From IMG/VR virus record IMGVR_UViG_3300017824_000070, positions 1 through 21,059 of that record: 21,059 nucleotides of DNA. One strand, given 5' to 3'. A program made the translations under genes and the position numbers. Origin of the DNA: a virus. The notes under the pieces are model-generated. The model worked only from the letters and a program-made list of their open reading frames with translations, searched no databases and was not told where the DNA came from. Below, in pieces: positions 3,073-10,917 of the stretch (positions within the stretch are counted from its first letter, which is position 1; each line of letters opens with the position of its first letter).

Positions 3073-4427
3073 TCACTGCTCGAAAAAAATTCTTTTGATA
3101 ATTTAGTAATGTTTACAGAAACAGAATGTTTGGTTCCTCTGAACATGTGTCGGGCTGCATAGATCAGATAATCACCAGATTTTTGTTTATCTGTCAAAGT
3201 TTCTGTATCCCGAATCTTTGTGTCGTCTACTGAAGATGCAAATTGACAACGCATAATATCGCCAACGCTAATCTTAGAATACATAAAACCCACGCCTGGA
3301 ACCACAACATTCAACATGTTTCTATATAATGCATTACGAATTGAGATGTTTTTTAATTTCAATGTGTGTTCGCGCGAATCGGTAACGTCATGATATCCCT
3401 GAAATTTATCATATGTTCCTAAAGAAGTTATTTGATGATATATTTTCGAATCATATTGATCTACGTATTTGTTGATAAAAAATTGGTTTTCATCGAAGAC
3501 AGATTGAGATGCATCGGACGATATTAAATCTCGAGATTTCATCTCAGACATTATGTCGCGTATACTAAATCTATCTCTTGATGTCAATCCTGTTCCGATA
3601 TCAGTATTAGTATAAAGAGACCCCAAGGCACCTTTAGATACCATTTTCAAAGAATCTTCAGATCCACCTGACTTAAATGCCTCAATCAAAAAACTCCTTT
3701 GTGCTTCGGTAAGATCTTCTGATTTTTGAGCCATTGCTGATGAATATATAAACGGTGATCTACTATTGAAAGGTTGTTTTTCTAACAACCCGTCAAGAGA
3801 TGCAATCCTTATATTGTTGTCGAAAATCGAAGAGTATGTGAAAAACGGACCTCCAAGTTCAGTGGTTGCACGATCACGTATCCAATCAATTGCTTGGAGT
3901 GGGTGCATATAGGGAATATTTATTTTCCTAACACCCTGCGATGATTTTGTCAAATAAGACTGATCCACATTTTTATTCAACGAACCAACAAATATCTCAG
4001 TCATAATACCTTCAAGGTATGCAGTATATGATTTGCTGATTTTGATCAATTTGTCAAAGAAAAAATGTTCTTCGACAAGGGATATCAAGTTTACTTCTGT
4101 TTTGTCGTTAGTTCTTATAGTTTTTTCGATCTTTGTCATCAAAAAAGTTTTTTCTTTTCCAGCAGGTCCGCCGATTCTCGGCTCGTTGATATCAGCAACG
4201 CCTGCAATCTCTATTGTTAATTTCTCAGTACCACTAAAATTGAGATTATCAACAATAGATGAATCGTCTAGTAAAATAAGTGATCCTGTTAAATATGGTT
4301 TCTCCAAACTTTCAAATAAATTTAATTCTCCAATCATTGCTCTTACGTCAACGGTCACTGGCGCCAAACGTTCAGCAGAAATTTCTGCTTTAATAATTTT
4401 AAATTGTTGTAAAACCTGCTGAGTCAT
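3069..4427 (-). CDS. 27: Baseplate hub protein, gp27-like
   Basis: 452 residues. T4 gp27 (391 residues) forms the trimeric hub ring under the tail tube and holds gp5. Support here is partly positional, since the next gene encodes the gp5-type OB protein, and partly sequence: the N-terminal pattern IGELNLFESLEKPYLTGSLI followed by SGTEKLTIEIAG, and NIPYMHPLQAIDWIRDRATT followed by PFFTYSSIF, are typical of gp27 / gpD-type hub proteins of contractile tails. It is slightly longer than T4 gp27. The stop overlaps the gp5-like start, and the ATG overlaps the gp53 stop as ATGA. The hub role is fairly safe; one-to-one orthology with gp27 needs a profile search. Confidence 0.7.
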   Translation of the reverse strand: MTQQVLQQFKIIKAEISAERLAPVTVDVRAMIGELNLFESLEKPYLTGSLILLDDSSIVDNLNFSGTEKLTIEIAGVADINEPRIGGPAGKEKTFLMTKIEKTIRTNDKTEVNLISLVEEHFFFDKLIKISKSYTAYLEGIMTEIFVGSLNKNVDQSYLTKSSQGVRKINIPYMHPLQAIDWIRDRATTELGGPFFTYSSIFDNNIRIASLDGLLEKQPFNSRSPFIYSSAMAQKSEDLTEAQRSFLIEAFKSGGSEDSLKMVSKGALGSLYTNTDIGTGLTSRDRFSIRDIMSEMKSRDLISSDASQSVFDENQFFINKYVDQYDSKIYHQITSLGTYDKFQGYHDVTDSREHTLKLKNISIRNALYRNMLNVVVPGVGFMYSKISVGDIMRCQFASSVDDTKIRDTETLTDKQKSGDYLIYAARHMFRGTKHSVSVNITKLSKEFFSSSE

Positions 4428-5218
4428 GTTCTAAGCAACTTCTTAAACTCTCCCGCCACAGAATCGACAATTTCTGGTTTCAGAACAATTATTTCTTTGA
4501 GGTCGTTATTTTTTGCTTGAAAAAAATCTTTAATTGTAATCAACTTTTTGCCAGATCTATCTTGAGAATAAGGATTAACGTCGACGTATTCCCCATTAGA
4601 ATTTTCATAATGATGAGCAGCATTATATTCTGCTTGAGACAACCAAACAGATGCAACTTGGGTTATACTTCCATCGCTATAAGATATCGAAGTTACCCCA
4701 GTAAAGTTGTTTGGATATTCTAAAGGTGATGCCGAAACTATTTGATATGAATTTTGTTCACTAATGTACGTTTCTTTTAACCCATTGGGTTTTATGATTA
4801 TTTGCCCCAAATCTAATTTTTTTCTAACAACCGTCGCAAAATATCCAGTGCTGGTTTTCACAATAGTTCCTTCCGGAAAGGTTGTCGCAACGAAAGAGTC
4901 TGTTGTCATAGTATAATTAGGATACCTTTCATATAAAACCTCATATTCTCTTTCAGAAGGCAATGGCCATCCAGACTCTCGTAATTTATCGTTCATTAAA
5001 AAGAAAGTCCAATAGTAATCACTAGTGCCATATAATTTATATGAAAACGTGTCTGGTCTTTCATTGTCTAAAATTGTCTGTTTGGTATAGAGAGAAACCT
5101 GTTCTTTCAAAACATCAATTAAATCAACACTCGTGGATATCTTTTGAAAATATACTAATGGTTCTTGGTCCCCAAAAGAATATTTCACTAAAGGAAAATT
5201 TTTAAAATATGTAGACAT
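4424..5218 (-). CDS. 53: Baseplate wedge protein gp53
   Basis: 264 residues. The N-terminal half matches the gp53 wedge family: YFKNFPLVKYSFGDQEP, then DVLKEQVSLYTKQTILDNERPDT and KLYGTSDYYWTFFLMNDKL followed by WPLPSEREYEVLYERYP. In T4, gp53 joins neighbouring wedges around the hub. Residues about 110-155 (GTIVKTSTGYFATVVRKKLD) look like a small beta domain. The gene sits between gp48-like and gp27-like genes; its ATG overlaps the gp48 stop by one base. Family assignment is strong because the Tyr/Trp-rich motif around residues 60-80 is characteristic. Confidence 0.85.
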   Translation of the reverse strand: MSTYFKNFPLVKYSFGDQEPLVYFQKISTSVDLIDVLKEQVSLYTKQTILDNERPDTFSYKLYGTSDYYWTFFLMNDKLRESGWPLPSEREYEVLYERYPNYTMTTDSFVATTFPEGTIVKTSTGYFATVVRKKLDLGQIIIKPNGLKETYISEQNSYQIVSASPLEYPNNFTGVTSISYSDGSITQVASVWLSQAEYNAAHHYENSNGEYVDVNPYSQDRSGKKLITIKDFFQAKNNDLKEIIVLKPEIVDSVAGEFKKLLRT

Positions 5219-6261
5219 TAGTATTTACCTTCGCTTATATCTGCTCTGGATAAGGTTCTTGATTCTCTGAATGTCATATTTATGTCAACTTCTTGAAAGT
5301 TTCCATCTTTATGCATGCCCATAGAAGTTGAGTTATAATTGACAGAAAAATTTTCAAGGTAGCAGGGCAAAAGTTTTGTTGCAACTGAAACCTCATTATA
5401 AAACATTTTAATTAAAAATCTGCTGGGGAATCGATAACCGATGGGGATTGATCCAGAACCATCTTTTTCTTCGCCCAAAAACAGTTCTTCGGGATATAGT
5501 TCTGTTCGAAATAGTTTAATTATTTCTGATATGTTTCTCGCTTCTTGTGCTGACTGTGGTATCATCTTAAACGAAAAAGAAAACGTTCGCATATTGACCG
5601 ATTTGAACAATGCCCTTGTGTTAGGGTTCACAGTAATTCTTGTAGCGGATTTAACTCCAGCGGCAACTCCCTCTCCAGACATCCCAGCAAGTTGTGTTGC
5701 TACCAATTTGCCAACACCAGAAGAAGAAGGTCCGGTAAACTGATCAACTAATGAAGAAACACCCCCGCCAAAACCAGAAGCAGATCCACCCTTTACCGCA
5801 GCTTCGGCAGCGCCACCGCTAATCCCAAGGTCTTGATTCTCATATTGAACTGCGTCAGAAAATTGAATTGCTTGCGGCAAGTATAGAGTAACACTTCTTC
5901 CTGGTTTAGTTTTTGGTTCTTTAAATGTTCTTCTTTTTGGTTGCAATCCTTGCTGTAATGCCTGAGACCTTCTTTCTGCCTCTTCTTTCTGTTGCTGGGG
6001 CGTTTTCTTTATTGCATCACCCCGCTCGTCTTTTTCATTATCTCTAGAAGTTGGATTTTGTTCGCCAGAAACACCAGAAAGTATTTCGCTAAAATTAGAA
6101 GCGATTTCGTCAACAACAGAAAAAACAATTCGTCCTTTATAGTCGGCAACGTCTTCTATTGGAAAAATTAAGTTTTGTTCAGAATTTGGTTCTGAGGCAA
6201 TGTAAGATCCAATGAGTTTTTCATCAGAATTATCAGAGTTTTGAGGTTGGGCGGTAGCCAT
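5218..6261 (-). CDS. 48: Baseplate tail-tube cap protein, gp48-like
   Basis: 347 residues. Residues 65-125 are low-complexity and charged (Glu, Lys, Gln), and residues 145-205 are Gly/Ser/Ala-rich. Residues about 210-345 carry the tube-like domain: VNPNTRALFKSVNMRTFSFS, FKMIPQSAQEARNISEIIKL, and a C-terminal YLENFSVNYN followed by FQEVDINMTFRESRTL, typical of gp48/gp54/gp19-fold proteins. T4 gp48 (364 residues) sits on the hub and nucleates tube assembly. It is the first gene of the leftward baseplate operon, about 30 bases downstream of the predicted late start site. gp54 is the alternative assignment, but size and the N-terminal layout fit gp48 better. Confidence 0.75.
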   Translation of the reverse strand: MATAQPQNSDNSDEKLIGSYIASEPNSEQNLIFPIEDVADYKGRIVFSVVDEIASNFSEILSGVSGEQNPTSRDNEKDERGDAIKKTPQQQKEEAERRSQALQQGLQPKRRTFKEPKTKPGRSVTLYLPQAIQFSDAVQYENQDLGISGGAAEAAVKGGSASGFGGGVSSLVDQFTGPSSSGVGKLVATQLAGMSGEGVAAGVKSATRITVNPNTRALFKSVNMRTFSFSFKMIPQSAQEARNISEIIKLFRTELYPEELFLGEEKDGSGSIPIGYRFPSRFLIKMFYNEVSVATKLLPCYLENFSVNYNSTSMGMHKDGNFQEVDINMTFRESRTLSRADISEGKY

Positions 6262-6809: not shown

Positions 6810-7403
6810 ATGAGCAATTTATTCAAAACATTAGAACTAGCAGCGTTTAGGTCTGGGATCACCCCAAGGACAGCGCAGTCTCGCGATTGGTTTCGTAAAA
6901 AAGCACAAGCAATTCGTGGAGTTAATCGCGAAGCGTTGATGAAAGAAGAAGAGCTAAAGAAATCAAGTAGTGAAATCGCCGGACACATGTACATGTTCTT
7001 CTATGACCCCAAGACAAAGGACCAGCTTCCTTACTATGATAAATTCCCATTAGTTATTGTTGTTGGTCCTGCACAGGGTGGTTTTTATGGGTTAAACCTG
7101 CACTATCTTCCTCAAACTTTAAGAGCGAAATTTTTAGATGGGTTGTTGGATATAACCAATAATAAGAAATATGACGATTCAACCAAGTTTAAGTTGTCAT
7201 ACTCGTTCCTAAAAAGATCATCAAAATTAAAGTATTTTGCCCCTTGCTTCAAACACTATTTAACTGATCACGTTAAAGGAAATTTTGCCAAAGTAAGTGC
7301 TCCTGAATATGAAATTGCAGTATTTTTACCAACGGCAGATTGGGCTAAAGGAAACCCCAATAAAGTATACGCAGACTCAAGGAAAATAATCAGTGGCATA
7401 TAA
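6810..7403 (+). CDS. Probable DNA end protector protein, gp2-like
   Basis: 197 residues. Recognisable stretches are YDPKTKDQLPYYDKFPLVIV and GGFYGLNLHYLPQTLRAKFL, which I associate with the protein annotated as gp2 (DNA end protector) in marine T4-like phages. gp2 binds packaged DNA ends, blocks host RecBCD and acts late in head completion. Adjacency to gp4 supports this, since genes 2 and 4 are close together in T4. It is shorter than T4 gp2. No nuclease or membrane motif is visible. Only five bases separate it from gp4, and there is no clear Shine-Dalgarno sequence. The function is recalled from family annotation, so certainty is moderate. Confidence 0.5.
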   Translation: MSNLFKTLELAAFRSGITPRTAQSRDWFRKKAQAIRGVNREALMKEEELKKSSSEIAGHMYMFFYDPKTKDQLPYYDKFPLVIVVGPAQGGFYGLNLHYLPQTLRAKFLDGLLDITNNKKYDDSTKFKLSYSFLKRSSKLKYFAPCFKHYLTDHVKGNFAKVSAPEYEIAVFLPTADWAKGNPNKVYADSRKIISGI

Positions 7404-8064
7404 TATAGAAGAAATTAAAAATTTAGTATCCTCTTCTGGCGGAATTGCAAAGACGAATCAGTATAGAATTGAACTAAGTGCAGAGAACGCAGCCAAGCGG
7501 TTAGACACCATGTGTCGCTCTGTTAATATGCCAGGAAGACAAATTCTTACCACAGATCGTAGAATTGGTATAACTACGAAACTTATCCCTTATGGATATG
7601 CTAAAGAAAATGTTTCCATGACATTCACTGTCCTTAATGATTCTTTCGTTAGATATTACTTTGAAACGTGGATGGATTCAATTGTAGATAACAATTCTTA
7701 CGAAATCGGATACTACAACGATTTCACTCGACAGATAACAGTAAAACAATTGGCGCCAAGCCAAAACGTCCAAGAATTAAAAAAGAAAATAACGCCGCGT
7801 GGTTCGAACACTGAACAATCTGCTGATATATCCACAGGGAGAGAAGGTTCAGTAATTAATCTCCCAGAACGAACAATCTATACTTGTATCCTAGAAGAAG
7901 CATATCCTATCTCAATAACAGGAGTAAACTATTCAGACAACTCTCCTGACACGGCCGTAGAATTGACAGTAGAATTTAGTTATAAAAACTGGAGAACAAA
8001 TGTCAATTCTCAAATAGAAGAAAGGCGGCAGCAATCTGGTGCGTTCAAAAGAGGAAAACTATAA
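7393..8064 (+). CDS. Tail-tube-fold protein (gp54/gp19-like)
   Basis: 223 residues, starting at GTG (7393) and overlapping the previous gene by 11 bases. The pattern GGIAKTNQYRIEL, CRSVNMPGRQILTTDRRI, LIPYGYAKENVSMTFTVLND, FETWMDSIVDNNSYEIGYYN and a C-terminal YPISITGVNYSDNSPDTAVE followed by EFSYKNW is that of contractile-tail tube proteins. In T4 this fold occurs in gp19 (tube) and gp54 (initiator on the baseplate). Being one copy among baseplate genes and longer than gp19 (163 residues), it may be the initiator; residues 135-160 are an insertion of low complexity. The choice between gp54 and gp19 is open. Confidence 0.6.
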   Translation: MAYNIEEIKNLVSSSGGIAKTNQYRIELSAENAAKRLDTMCRSVNMPGRQILTTDRRIGITTKLIPYGYAKENVSMTFTVLNDSFVRYYFETWMDSIVDNNSYEIGYYNDFTRQITVKQLAPSQNVQELKKKITPRGSNTEQSADISTGREGSVINLPERTIYTCILEEAYPISITGVNYSDNSPDTAVELTVEFSYKNWRTNVNSQIEERRQQSGAFKRGKL

Positions 8065-8130: not shown

Positions 8131-8841
8131 ATGGCGTTACCTAAGTTAAATGATAGTCCGAAGTTTGAATTGACTATCCCCTCAACTCAAAAAAGTGTGA
8201 GGTTTAGGCCATATTTGGTCAAAGAAGAAAAAGTTTTATTGATGGCGTTTGAGTCAGGAGATGAGACAGCAACATTGGCAGCAGTGTTGGACACTATAGT
8301 GTCTTGTGTGCAGGGCGATATTAATCCCTCTGCGCTGACAACGTTTGACGTAGAATATATGTTCACGCAGATTAGAGCAAAATCTGTGGGTGAAAAAACT
8401 AAGGTTGGTGTAATTTGTAATGAATGTAATACTAAGAACGAGGTATCAATCAATTTAGAAGAAGTCAAGATTAAGATACCAGATAACAAGGCGTCAAATA
8501 AAATTGCTATTAGTGATGAGATTACAATAGAAATGGGTTATCCTTCTTATAGTAATCTTACCGATGGATCTCATATGCTTAACGGGAATTCAGAAGGTGC
8601 TTTTGATTTAGTAGCAAGTTGTATGGTTGCCATTGAAACAGAAGAAGAACGAATTGCAACCAGAGATGAACCAAAGGATAGCATTAAAGAGTTTTTAGAA
8701 TCAATGACATCATCTCAGTTCCTTATGTTGGCAGAATATTTAAAGGAAATGCCCAAGACAACGTATGAACTAGAGTTTACTTGTGAGCATTGCGGTGCTG
8801 AAAATAAAAGAACAATAGAAGGAATGCAGAATTTTTTCTAA
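8131..8841 (+). CDS. 26: Baseplate / tail assembly protein gp26-like (zero-frame product)
   Basis: 236 residues, preceded by GGAG. It matches the T4 baseplate protein family that includes gp26: LPKLNDSPKFELTIPSTQKS and VRFRPYLVKEEKVLLMAFES near the start. Two CxxC pairs (Cys96/Cys99 in ICNECNTKNE and Cys218/Cys221 in CEHCGAENK) could form one zinc ribbon bringing distant parts together. The gene ends in Asn-Phe-Phe-stop, where the two Phe codons are a -1 slippery site (see the fusion entry). Placed directly before a tape-measure-like gene, it occupies the position of the lambda gpG-type tail assembly chaperone. In T4, gp26 is needed for hub assembly. Confidence 0.75.
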   Translation: MALPKLNDSPKFELTIPSTQKSVRFRPYLVKEEKVLLMAFESGDETATLAAVLDTIVSCVQGDINPSALTTFDVEYMFTQIRAKSVGEKTKVGVICNECNTKNEVSINLEEVKIKIPDNKASNKIAISDEITIEMGYPSYSNLTDGSHMLNGNSEGAFDLVASCMVAIETEEERIATRDEPKDSIKEFLESMTSSQFLMLAEYLKEMPKTTYELEFTCEHCGAENKRTIEGMQNFF

Positions 8842-9029
8842 TATGCCTCTCTCATGACAATTTGGTAAATCATTATAGGTTGAATTTTCAGTTAATGCAG
8901 CATCACAAATATTCATTAACGGAATTGAACGAAATGTTACCTTGGGAGAGGGAAATTTATGTCATGATGTTGATTGAACACGTTAAAGAAGAGAACGAAA
9001 GGATTAAACAGAAAAATGGCGGAAGATAA
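8131..9029 (+). CDS. gp26-like -1 frameshift fusion (predicted 299 residues)
   Basis: If ribosomes slip back one base on the heptamer at 8832-8838, translation continues past the zero-frame stop for 63 codons (CTA at 8838 to AGA at 9026) and ends at TAA 9027-9029. The extension begins LICLSHDNLVNHYRLNFQLM, then has QHHKYSLTELNEMLPWEREI and ends VMMLIEHVKEENERIKQKNG, then GR. Its composition is fully protein-like, with a Trp-Glu-Arg-Glu-Ile-Tyr core like the short second parts of tail assembly chaperones. There is no good start codon with a ribosome-binding site for separate expression; an internal ATG at 8895 would yield 44 residues. It overlaps the next gene's start by 14 bases. The frame is certain; use of the shift is inferred. 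Confidence 0.7.
8832..8838 (+). promoter_or_regulatory. Programmed -1 ribosomal frameshift site (T_TTT_TTC)
   Basis: In the gp26-like frame the codons are TTT TTC followed at once by TAA, giving a perfect X_XXY_YYZ heptamer. An AGAAGGA motif at 8817-8823 ends eight bases upstream and could act as a Shine-Dalgarno-like stimulator. I see no strong hairpin in the following 40 bases; only a weak ATGA/TCAT pairing is visible. Confidence 0.65.
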
Positions 9030-10917
9030 AAACAATATAATGAGTGGTGATTTTCTGCCAGCTTCTACTCAGCTAGCAGAAGTCACTCTAGCGTTGAAGA
9101 TTGCCAACGAAAATAGATTAACTATTTCGGAAAGGGAATCTGAGAAAGAGACTGACGCTCTTAAGATCTTCCAATCTATTGACGAGAATATTAAAAGTAT
9201 CGCGGAATCCATCAAGAATTTTTCCAAAGATTTGGTGCAAGAAGTTCAGATACTCAACGAATTCCAAATTGAACAAGCAAAAAACGAATTGATACAAGAC
9301 AAACAAGATGAAAATAAAAAGAAAGAAGAAGAGAGAGAGAAAGGAATAGTTGCGGCCGCCAAGGCAGATTTTGGTAAAGGAAAGGAAGACGCTGAAAAAG
9401 AGATCGGAGAAAAAGGTCTTCTCAAATACATTGCTGATATTACTGGATTTGGAGGAACTCTTTCTACAGTTATGAAAAGTCTTGGAACCTTTTCTGCTAT
9501 AATAAGTACTGTGTTGGGACCATCCTTAGCAGCAATAGGTGGATCCTTAGCTAGCGTGGGTGCTTTTATAACGGGAACTATTGTTCCTGCTATAACTGCA
9601 TTTGCAACAACAGCAATGACGGTTCTTGCTCCGGTTGCTTTAGTTCTTGCCGGAGCATTGGCAGCAATCGAGTTTATCAAAGGGTTTGTTGATGGATTTA
9701 CTGCTAACGCAGAAGATGGATTTGCCACAAAAGTTCTAAGAGGTCTTACTCGAGGCATTGAAGAAGTTCTTGATATGTTTATCATGTGGCCGCTGGATCA
9801 AATAAAGAACCTTGTTTCTTGGGTCGCCGGAGCACTTGGGTTTGCTGATGTAGAGAAGGCACTGGACAACTTTAGTTATCAAGAATCGTTTGCCGAAATA
9901 ATGGATAGTTTCGAAGAATGGATAACTTCTATACCCACTGCTATTTCTGAATTCCTTACAAGAATGTTCGAACCAGTCACATCAATGTTCTCTTTTATTG
10001 GTGATATCGTAGATGATGTCACCAATGCGATCGCCGAATTTGTTTCGGGCGATTTCTTCGACCTATCAAAAATCAAGAGCATGATGACCAACATGTTTGC
10101 AGAGATCGGCGTTCCAAGAATAGAGTTTGATGTTCCTGTTATTGGTAAGGTGGGGTTTGGTCCTTTCTATCCGTTTATGCCTGATCAAGTTGATATGGGC
10201 GGTGGGAAAACAGGCAGCAATGCCGTGATAAGCGGAAAAGAATCATCAGAAAATGTTGTGGAATCGACCCAAGAGATAAACACATCGTCGATCGCTTCAT
10301 TAGATTCTGGATCTGTTGGAAACCAATACTCAGAAAGTATGAGTTCGAGGATCTTACAGCAAGAAATGGTTACAGAGAATGGTGGTGGCGAGAAGTTCAA
10401 AGAATCGTTTGGTGATTTTGATTTTGAAAAAGGCAAGGGAACTATTAGTATATCTCAGACCGACTCTTCTAACGAACTGAACAACATGACAGAAGAATTT
10501 ACTGGTCTTGGTCCGGTTGCATTTGGTCAGGCAAGGAGACTAGTTGCTTCTGGGGCGTCTATCGAAGAAGTAAGAACATTCTTGAAACAAAAAGAGAAGT
10601 CAGTATTTACATTAGTTAAAGAAATGATCGGTGGTGGTATATCTTCAATATCCGAGGGTGGATCTGCTCTATTAGATTCGTCGGCGGATTCAACATCATC
10701 TTTGTTGGGGTTGTCTTCTCCGGATACAACAATTCGAGGAATTTCTGCCGAAGCACTAGAAAAAGAAACAAAGCAAAGAGAAGAAACGAAGAGCGAAGTC
10801 CGTAATGCTCCGGTGGTAGTCAACGCGCCATCCACAACGACCAACACTAGTGTTAACAACCAATCTATGATTATGGATACACCAAGTGCAATTGACGGAT
10901 TGTCTTTAGGATACTAA
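9016..10917 (+). CDS. Tail tape measure / baseplate hub protein, gp29-like
   Basis: 633 residues from ATG 9016. The frame stays open upstream to a TTG at 8974, but that part overlaps the frameshift extension and ATG has AAGGA about 12 bases before it. Residues about 36-126 are charged and helical (coiled-coil-like, ending in a Lys/Glu-rich run). Residues about 146-228 are strongly hydrophobic, Gly/Ala-rich and contain possible membrane segments. The remainder is Ser/Glu-rich with Val-Asn-Ala-Pro and Thr-Asn repeats at the end. That layout is typical of tape measure proteins, and T4 gp29 is of similar size (590 residues). Position after a chaperone with a frameshift supports it. It ends with tandem TAA TAA. 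I see no lytic motif. Direct sequence identity with gp29 was not recognised. Confidence 0.65.
   Translation: MAEDKNNIMSGDFLPASTQLAEVTLALKIANENRLTISERESEKETDALKIFQSIDENIKSIAESIKNFSKDLVQEVQILNEFQIEQAKNELIQDKQDENKKKEEEREKGIVAAAKADFGKGKEDAEKEIGEKGLLKYIADITGFGGTLSTVMKSLGTFSAIISTVLGPSLAAIGGSLASVGAFITGTIVPAITAFATTAMTVLAPVALVLAGALAAIEFIKGFVDGFTANAEDGFATKVLRGLTRGIEEVLDMFIMWPLDQIKNLVSWVAGALGFADVEKALDNFSYQESFAEIMDSFEEWITSIPTAISEFLTRMFEPVTSMFSFIGDIVDDVTNAIAEFVSGDFFDLSKIKSMMTNMFAEIGVPRIEFDVPVIGKVGFGPFYPFMPDQVDMGGGKTGSNAVISGKESSENVVESTQEINTSSIASLDSGSVGNQYSESMSSRILQQEMVTENGGGEKFKESFGDFDFEKGKGTISISQTDSSNELNNMTEEFTGLGPVAFGQARRLVASGASIEEVRTFLKQKEKSVFTLVKEMIGGGISSISEGGSALLDSSADSTSSLLGLSSPDTTIRGISAEALEKETKQREETKSEVRNAPVVVNAPSTTTNTSVNNQSMIMDTPSAIDGLSLGY

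Follow-up and report, generated by a model that had tools for sequence, protein, structure and literature searches.

A probable programmed -1 frameshift joining gp26-like and gp51-like parts of a tail assembly chaperone in T4-type phages, with a candidate long-range RNA stem

Introduction

How is a gp51-like sequence expressed when it lies beyond the stop codon of a gp26-like gene, in another reading frame and ahead of a tape-measure-like gene? This question is raised by a 21,059-base virus record of IMG/VR, which we analyzed over its whole length (hereafter, the window). The locus recalls the G/GT pair of phage lambda and the HK97-type chaperones, where a short and a -1-extended chaperone are likewise encoded ahead of the tape measure gene.

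T4-like chaperone genes were reportedly identified by Vladimirov, Gautam and Davidson in 2022, in work known to us through the papers that cite it. The accessible part of the PRFect paper, citing Vladimirov et al. 2022, states that some T4-like phages do without frameshifting and have one short copy and one long, fused copy (PMC10885494), and the accessible part of the phage Adele paper credits that study with poly-T -1 slippery sequences in the TAC-N genes of T4-like phages (PMC12846349). As far as these excerpts go, the genes described here share with those TAC genes both the phage group and the poly-T -1 slippery sequences attributed to them. A 2016 recoding review, in the portion available, describes G-T frameshifting as widely conserved 'except T4' (PMC5009743), and the available text of Sullivan et al. 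2010 reports that cyanophage gp51 has about 20% of the length of the others and is missing the first ~200 residues (PMC3037559). The initial annotation of this DNA had treated the frameshift as not being an established feature of T4 gp26. The passages from the PRFect and Adele papers correct this, and a frameshift of this kind is already recognized in T4-like phages and is not new in kind.

Results

Layout of the locus

The gp26-like gene (8131..8841, plus strand) encodes a 236-residue protein, the candidate short form (G, or TAC-N), and ends in the codons AAT TTT TTC TAA. These contain the slippery heptamer T_TTT_TTC (8832..8838, plus strand), with the zero-frame TAA stop immediately 3' of it (8839..8841, plus strand). 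The -1 frame is free of stops from 8808, 5' of the slip site, to a TAA at 9027-9029. Its post-slip codons occupy 8838-9026, and the extension, of 63 codons plus the stop, therefore spans 8838..9029 on the plus strand and would bring the frameshift product to 236+63 = 299 residues. A tape-measure-like gene of 633 residues (9016..10917, plus strand) lies 3' of the extension, and its ATG at 9016 creates a 14-nt overlap. The initial annotation had given the same heptamer coordinates, which held exactly, as did its 63-codon open frame overlapping the start of the tape-measure-like gene and its 299-residue product.

On the 5' side, the gp26-like gene is preceded by a clear member of the tail tube family (7393..8064, plus strand; phrog_45, 2.3e-28). 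The downstream gene is probably the tape measure gene, as suggested by its position, a weak match to phrog_27688 and the tape measure annotation that HTVC008M and Cr30 carry for the genes 3' of the same gp26/extension pair.

Relations to T4 gp26 and gp51 and to tail assembly chaperones

We found that the gp26-like ORF matched PF12322 (T4_baseplate) with an E-value of 1.4e-57 and 195.3 bits, against a cut-off of 24.5, and phrog_150 with 1.2e-60. The extension matched phrog_634, the 'baseplate hub assembly catalyst' or gp51 family (3.9e-27, profile positions 59-116 of 121), and also the C-terminal end of the phrog_150 profile. Among 50,697 phage records, a tblastn search with the extension matched 609 at E<=1 and 645 at E<=10. 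In the 60 of the 609 matches that were listed, cyanophage records often had it annotated as a short gp51 gene in its own right.

Profile comparisons with HHalign placed both products within the T4 system. For T4-type gp51 (3 sequences), the alignment with the fused product took in almost all of gp51, with columns 6-251 placed on 17-293 (probability 99.6, E 4e-24). T4-type gp26 aligned with the short form (probability 99.7), and gp51 and gp26 aligned with each other (probability 98.2). The T4 hub assembly chaperones gp26 and gp51 thus correspond to the short and the long form, in keeping with the initial proposal that T4-type gp26 is the G-type protein and the extension its T part. In T4, Aeromonas phage 25 and SSG23, however, gp26 and gp51 are separate, divergently transcribed genes that look like paralogs, so frameshifting is not needed there. 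A profile comparison with known GT proteins had been proposed in the initial annotation as a check; HHalign against single lambda G and T sequences found no sequence match (probability 0.1-0.2).

Structural comparison pointed to a chaperone fold in the N-terminal domain. An AlphaFold2 model of the gp26-like protein, built with 48 sequences, had a pLDDT of 92. In a second look with VIA-align, 3fgx, 2ob9 (the HK97 tail assembly chaperone) and 3klu scored Z 7.9, 7.4 and 7.2, with matches that fall inside residues 1-96, and the next row scored 4.0; 3fgx and 3klu we take to be prophage chaperones. Foldseek against the pdb alone placed the HK97 chaperone ninth, with an E-value of 0.78 and a probability of 0.87. 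The resemblance of the predicted domain to this fold is therefore moderate but specific, with Z below 8 and the Foldseek E-value just given. Among viral models, the named top rows of the structure search were other T4-type gp26 proteins. A PDB sequence-profile search had as its best E-value 0.068, to unrelated proteins, and was set aside. The gp26-like protein differs from lambda G and the HK97-type chaperones in having a further C-terminal part, and its gene differs in having a Shine-Dalgarno-like element and a candidate long-range stem.

Conservation of the heptamer and the -1 register

All 159 loci having both parts, the window included, carried the extension in frame -1 relative to gp26, and an in-phase TTTTTTN (T6) was found at most 25 codons from the stop in 172 of 173 loci (136 distinct sequences, again with the window). 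The single exception, L136, also has T6, but its gp26 frame is broken upstream; it was left out of later analyses. The last base of the heptamer was C in 95 of the 172 loci, T in 67, A in 8 and G in 2. Among 240 loci fetched later, the -1 register held in 240 and the in-phase T6 in 239. Since 36 of these duplicate an earlier sequence exactly, 204 relatives had not been seen before, with counts of 204/204 for the -1 frame and 203/204 for the T6 heptamer. The one locus without T6, L360, reads GTGTTTTC.

In a set made non-redundant at 80% (107 loci, all carrying the T6 site), the chance of finding xxT-TTT in every locus is about 10^-42 for these amino acids under ordinary codon usage, a figure that ignores relatedness and comes from a set defined by having T6. 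The tallies of register and T6 are the cleaner test. In these 107 loci the zero-frame stop followed the heptamer at a distance of 0 nt in 42, 3 nt in 60, 6 nt in 1 and 24-27 nt in 4, and some loci have a TGA just 5' of the slip site, so that the -1 frame opens exactly there. Judged from sequence conservation, the pairing of T6 with a -1 extension at the end of gp26 is not a chance occurrence. Conservation of both among homologues, which the initial annotation had named as the way to check its proposal, was thus borne out. The homologues without a heptamer that would have counted against it do exist (L360 and the named phages K476, phiA8-29 and SUMAE); all of them keep the -1 extension.

An upstream Shine-Dalgarno-like element and a long-range downstream stem

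A Shine-Dalgarno-like sequence, GAAGGA, lies 5' of the slip site in the window (8818..8823, plus strand). Of the 107 non-redundant loci, 74 had a Shine-Dalgarno-like 4-mer 4-20 nt 5' of the slip site, with its start at 12-15 nt in most of them, as compared with 1550 of 21617 other in-frame positions (7.2%). Glu-Gly codons were Shine-Dalgarno-like in 47 of 58 cases at the site versus 187 of 476 elsewhere, which suggests that the signal does not come only from the amino acids and that synonymous choice contributes.

We scanned all stems in a gapless alignment of 97 sequences (the discovery set), which left out 8 of the 107 loci that lack a PWER/PFER/PYER motif at residue 34 and 2 that were too short. 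The best stem by pairing times mutual information joined an arm 6-7 nt past the heptamer to the Trp-Glu-Arg codons some 105-113 nt downstream. When only pairing was scored, it came fourth, after pairings that involve the invariant T-run, and no consensus structure was returned by RNAalifold on the same alignment. In the window, the proposed 5' arm CCTCTCTCA (8846..8854, plus strand) begins 7 nt past the heptamer, and the 3' arm TGGGAGAGG (8943..8951, plus strand) falls in the Trp-Glu-Arg codons of PWERE, across an 88-nt loop. Pairing at every one of the nine canonical positions was seen in 59 of 180 loci; the window is one of these, and has a single G-U among its nine pairs.

The codon-third positions of the two arms face each other, giving five third-position pairs (numbered from the last base of the heptamer). 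In the discovery set, two of these took the first two ranks among 1035 third-position pairs, both by Watson-Crick excess and by corrected mutual information. A held-out validation set, from the same phage groups, was drawn from the 240 later loci. Setting aside the locus without T6 left 239, of which 233 were full-length with PWER at residue 34, and a filter that kept identity below 85%, both to the discovery sequences and within the new set, reduced these to 83. The same two pairs ranked 1 and 3 in this set (n=83), and 1 and 2 in both sets combined (z 8.0 and 7.5). Pairs (5,116) and (14,107) gave no signal and (17,104) a weak one. The second rank in the validation set went to pair (44,83), with a z of 4.74, perhaps a helix inside the long loop.

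Of the alignment cells in the stem, 80.2% were paired versus 41-63% for slid versions, as is expected of a structure drawn from these sequences, and the covariation score was reached in 0 of 500 shuffles. Neither the number of pairs with changes on both sides (5 versus 4.3) nor that of pair types (16 versus 15.6) exceeded the shuffles. The 120-nt fold of the window had a z of -2.2. Folds of the 60 nt downstream had a mean z of -1.20 over the 107 loci, with 24% below -2, compared with -0.45 to 0.03 and 1-12% for controls. A standard local hairpin was rejected as the stimulator: hairpins of at least 6 bp were not enriched (8 of 180 loci versus 6-50 at control positions), and the 60-nt downstream fold of the window had no stability (z +1.6). 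Three loci (L124, L156 and L158) have perfect hairpins just past the heptamer, with 8-9 bp and a 4-nt loop (GCAA in L158), in the place taken by the long-range arm at other loci.

Could the stem instead serve another role, such as mRNA stability or translation of the tape measure gene, or simply reflect shared ancestry? Pairing of each arm with its own locus was compared with pairing across loci. The first such tests used the loci with a PWER/PFER/PYER motif (all but 6 of the 107), and in them z values as low as -6.2 were obtained for local control segments. Because relatedness inflates these z values, we relied on the third-position ranking, in which all pairs share one tree. Own-locus pairing over cross-locus pairing gave z -16.6, and control arms showed a signal too, at -2.6 to -5.7; the GC-matched difference was -2.98 kcal/mol (s.e. 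0.29). Only 21 of 180 loci had an own region in the top 5% of partners for the arm, a low figure because the arms are alike, and relatedness and shared arm sequences both contribute to this comparison. Against another role or ancestry stand the size of the own-locus signal, its survival of GC matching, the constant spacing to the heptamer, the use of three partner sites by one arm (both described below) and the placing of synonymous pairs at the top of 1035 pairs that have the same tree. We therefore regard such an explanation as unlikely. The downstream stem covaries, a result that held in the validation set, and on this sequence evidence we propose that it probably acts as a stimulator.

The partner of the 5' arm appears to differ between lineages. 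An uninterrupted helix from this arm reached p<=0.05 in 101 of 180 loci versus 15 of 180 from a control arm. When short loops were allowed in a rerun, the counts were 101 versus 13 and 27 of 180 for two control arms. The remaining 79 loci had no significant helix by the first of these tests. The spacer to the heptamer was 6-7 nt in 73 of the 101 helices, and the partner lay near +100-118 in 81, at +76-99 in 9 and up to +75 in 11. Among loci whose Trp-Glu-Arg partner is poor, some have long, perfect alternative helices, at +82-93 in L042, L050, L051, L058 and L064 and at +49-70 in L002, L107, phiM7 and Milchi. Among 13 named records, the partner helix had a z below -2 in six (phiM7, Milchi, RHph_I46, Melnitz-3, Mosig and C48C1) and not in the other seven (VH7D, R11Z, Cr30, Atu_ph04, ACP17, BUCT608 and HTVC008M). 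We lean slightly towards a model in which a movable long-range stem drives the frameshift: the 5' arm would stay fixed at 6-7 nt, the partner would occupy one of about three sites within the extension codons (~+38-70, +79-94 and +100-118), usually across a loop of ~90 nt, and the stem would persist while the partner changes by lineage. If true, a relocating stimulator embedded in coding sequence would be new for phage tail chaperones. A literature search, within the text it made accessible, found no mention of the stem or the Shine-Dalgarno-like element for T4-like chaperone genes, and the long-range stem is the part that may be new.

Whether the extension has a start of its own

An alternative to frameshifting is that the extension is a separate small gene (gp51) translated from its own start, by internal initiation or by stop-and-restart, in line with existing annotations. 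The window offers in-frame TTG codons at positions 8 and 14 of the extension and an ATG at codon 19, and no well-placed Shine-Dalgarno sequence was found before any of these candidates. Among relatives, the first in-frame ATG stood at residue 18-19 in 77 of 107 loci, within the conserved domain, and the position of the first ATG, GTG or TTG varied, with at most 30 of 107 loci sharing one place. Homology and purifying selection begin earlier, at the slip site: residues 1-17 past it had a pN/pS of 0.27 (72 disjoint pairs), with 246/188/472 substitutions at the three codon positions. An internal start at the ATG of residue 18-19 cannot account for this constraint, because the codons before that ATG are constrained as protein. 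The initial annotation had called the extension protein-like; that much stands, but the sequence is a member of a known family, phrog_634, and not an unknown.

An in-frame ATG overlapping the zero-frame stop (TAATG or TGATG) was found in 9 of the 107 non-redundant loci, where restart could yield the extension, but it is absent from the window and from most loci. For the window, we therefore rejected a separate start, which lacks an overlapping start codon and would leave the constraint before the first ATG unexplained. An own start for the extension, which the initial annotation had named as evidence against its reading, thus very probably applies neither to the window nor to most loci, and could hold for lineages with the stop/start overlap. 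As a general account, a separate gene also leaves unexplained the T6 run, the constant -1 register and the fused gp51 of T4, and we consider it very improbable. Less credible still is transcriptional slippage, in which RNA polymerase would slip on the T-run and the edited mRNA would yield the long form: one added U gives the -1 frame and the run has eight Ts in 51 and seven in 16 of 172 loci, but it has just six in 105, the window included, which is short for such slippage, and the Shine-Dalgarno-like element and a stem 6-7 nt downstream are features of ribosomal events.

Named phages and their annotation

We compared 18 named phage records, chosen by hand for diversity. The extension was in another frame in 17, which span Kyanoviridae, Schizotequatrovirus, Pootjesviridae, Emdodecavirus, Busanvirus, Menderavirus, Cr30 and Milchi. 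It was in the -1 frame with T6 in 14 of these (Mosig, S-WAM1, C48C1, HTVC008M, Melnitz-3, VH7D, R11Z, Cr30, phiM7, Atu_ph04, ACP17, Milchi, RHph_I46 and BUCT608) and in the -1 frame without T6 in 3 (K476, phiA8-29 and SUMAE). The 18th record, Campylobacter phage WX1, has a single fused gp51-like ORF of 246 residues (L174:1856-2596) that aligns with the frameshift product (probability 97.9).

Half of the 14 T6 records have an in-frame ATG that overlaps the gp26 stop (VH7D, R11Z, Cr30, phiM7, Atu_ph04, RHph_I46 and BUCT608). In these lineages stop-and-restart could yield the extension, beside or instead of frameshifting; the two may coexist, or restart may have replaced frameshifting. The annotations differ between records. 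The extension is given as a short gene from a later start codon in Mosig, C48C1, HTVC008M and Melnitz-3, starts at the ATG overlapping the gp26 stop in Cr30, RHph_I46 and R11Z, and has no annotated gene in S-WAM1, VH7D, Atu_ph04 and ACP17.

By locus, overlaps of stop and ATG at the end of gp26 were seen in L167, L168, L169, L171, L177, L178 and L180, all of which retain T6, and in K476 (L176, 2521), which has no T6. The distant gp26 relatives phiA8-29 (L179, 2554) and SUMAE (L181, 2712) have a -1 extension with neither T6 nor an overlapping ATG.

Discussion

The heptamer, the conserved -1 frame, the homology to T4 proteins and the predicted chaperone fold together give good support to the G/GT-type -1 frameshift pair put forward in the initial annotation. 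We consider it very likely, on comparative sequence grounds, that in this marine relative of T4 a single mRNA yields a short and a long form of a tail assembly chaperone by programmed -1 frameshifting; frameshifting itself, the slip rate and the stimulatory role of both signals are what we infer. Most ribosomes would terminate at the TAA at 8839 and release the 236-residue gp26 (G, TAC-N). Some would move back by one nucleotide at T_TTT_TTC, a site that lets both Phe tRNAs pair again in the -1 frame, and would add the 63-residue gp51-like domain to give the 299-residue form (GT, TAC-NC). The Shine-Dalgarno-like sequence on the 5' side and the stem 6-7 nt past the heptamer probably stall the ribosome and so raise the slip rate. 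As in the case of lambda GT, the 299-residue form probably connects the product of the next gene, the tape measure protein, with proteins of the tail tube or hub; gene order suggests that the downstream tape-measure-like protein is the client of the chaperone.

Programmed frameshifting would explain why, in marine T4-type phages, 'gp51' seems to have a fifth of the expected length: the extension would be the frameshifted tail of gp26. In the accessible text of Sullivan et al. 2010, cyanophage gp51 is a reduced protein (PMC3037559), whereas here gp26 would supply the missing part via the frameshift. This 'gp51' would then be a tail of gp26 and not a gene, and annotations that assign it a separate start codon would be in error. 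Schizotequatrovirus retains the overlapping arrangement and belongs to the same family, Straboviridae, as T4-type phages with separate genes. Recoding may thus have been replaced by gene duplication, or the reverse, within one family, and the stop/start overlap in Schizotequatrovirus also allows restart. For bacteria, the stem provides a simple model, open to testing, of how frameshifting could be stimulated over a long range.

The surroundings of the pair vary. In L001, L165 and L166, from Pelagibacter and Methylophilales phages, additional small ORFs separate the extension from the tape-measure-like gene; the window has none. On its minus strand, at 4424-6261, the window carries baseplate genes that belong to the tail tube cap and wedge families and are divergent from the gp26 operon.
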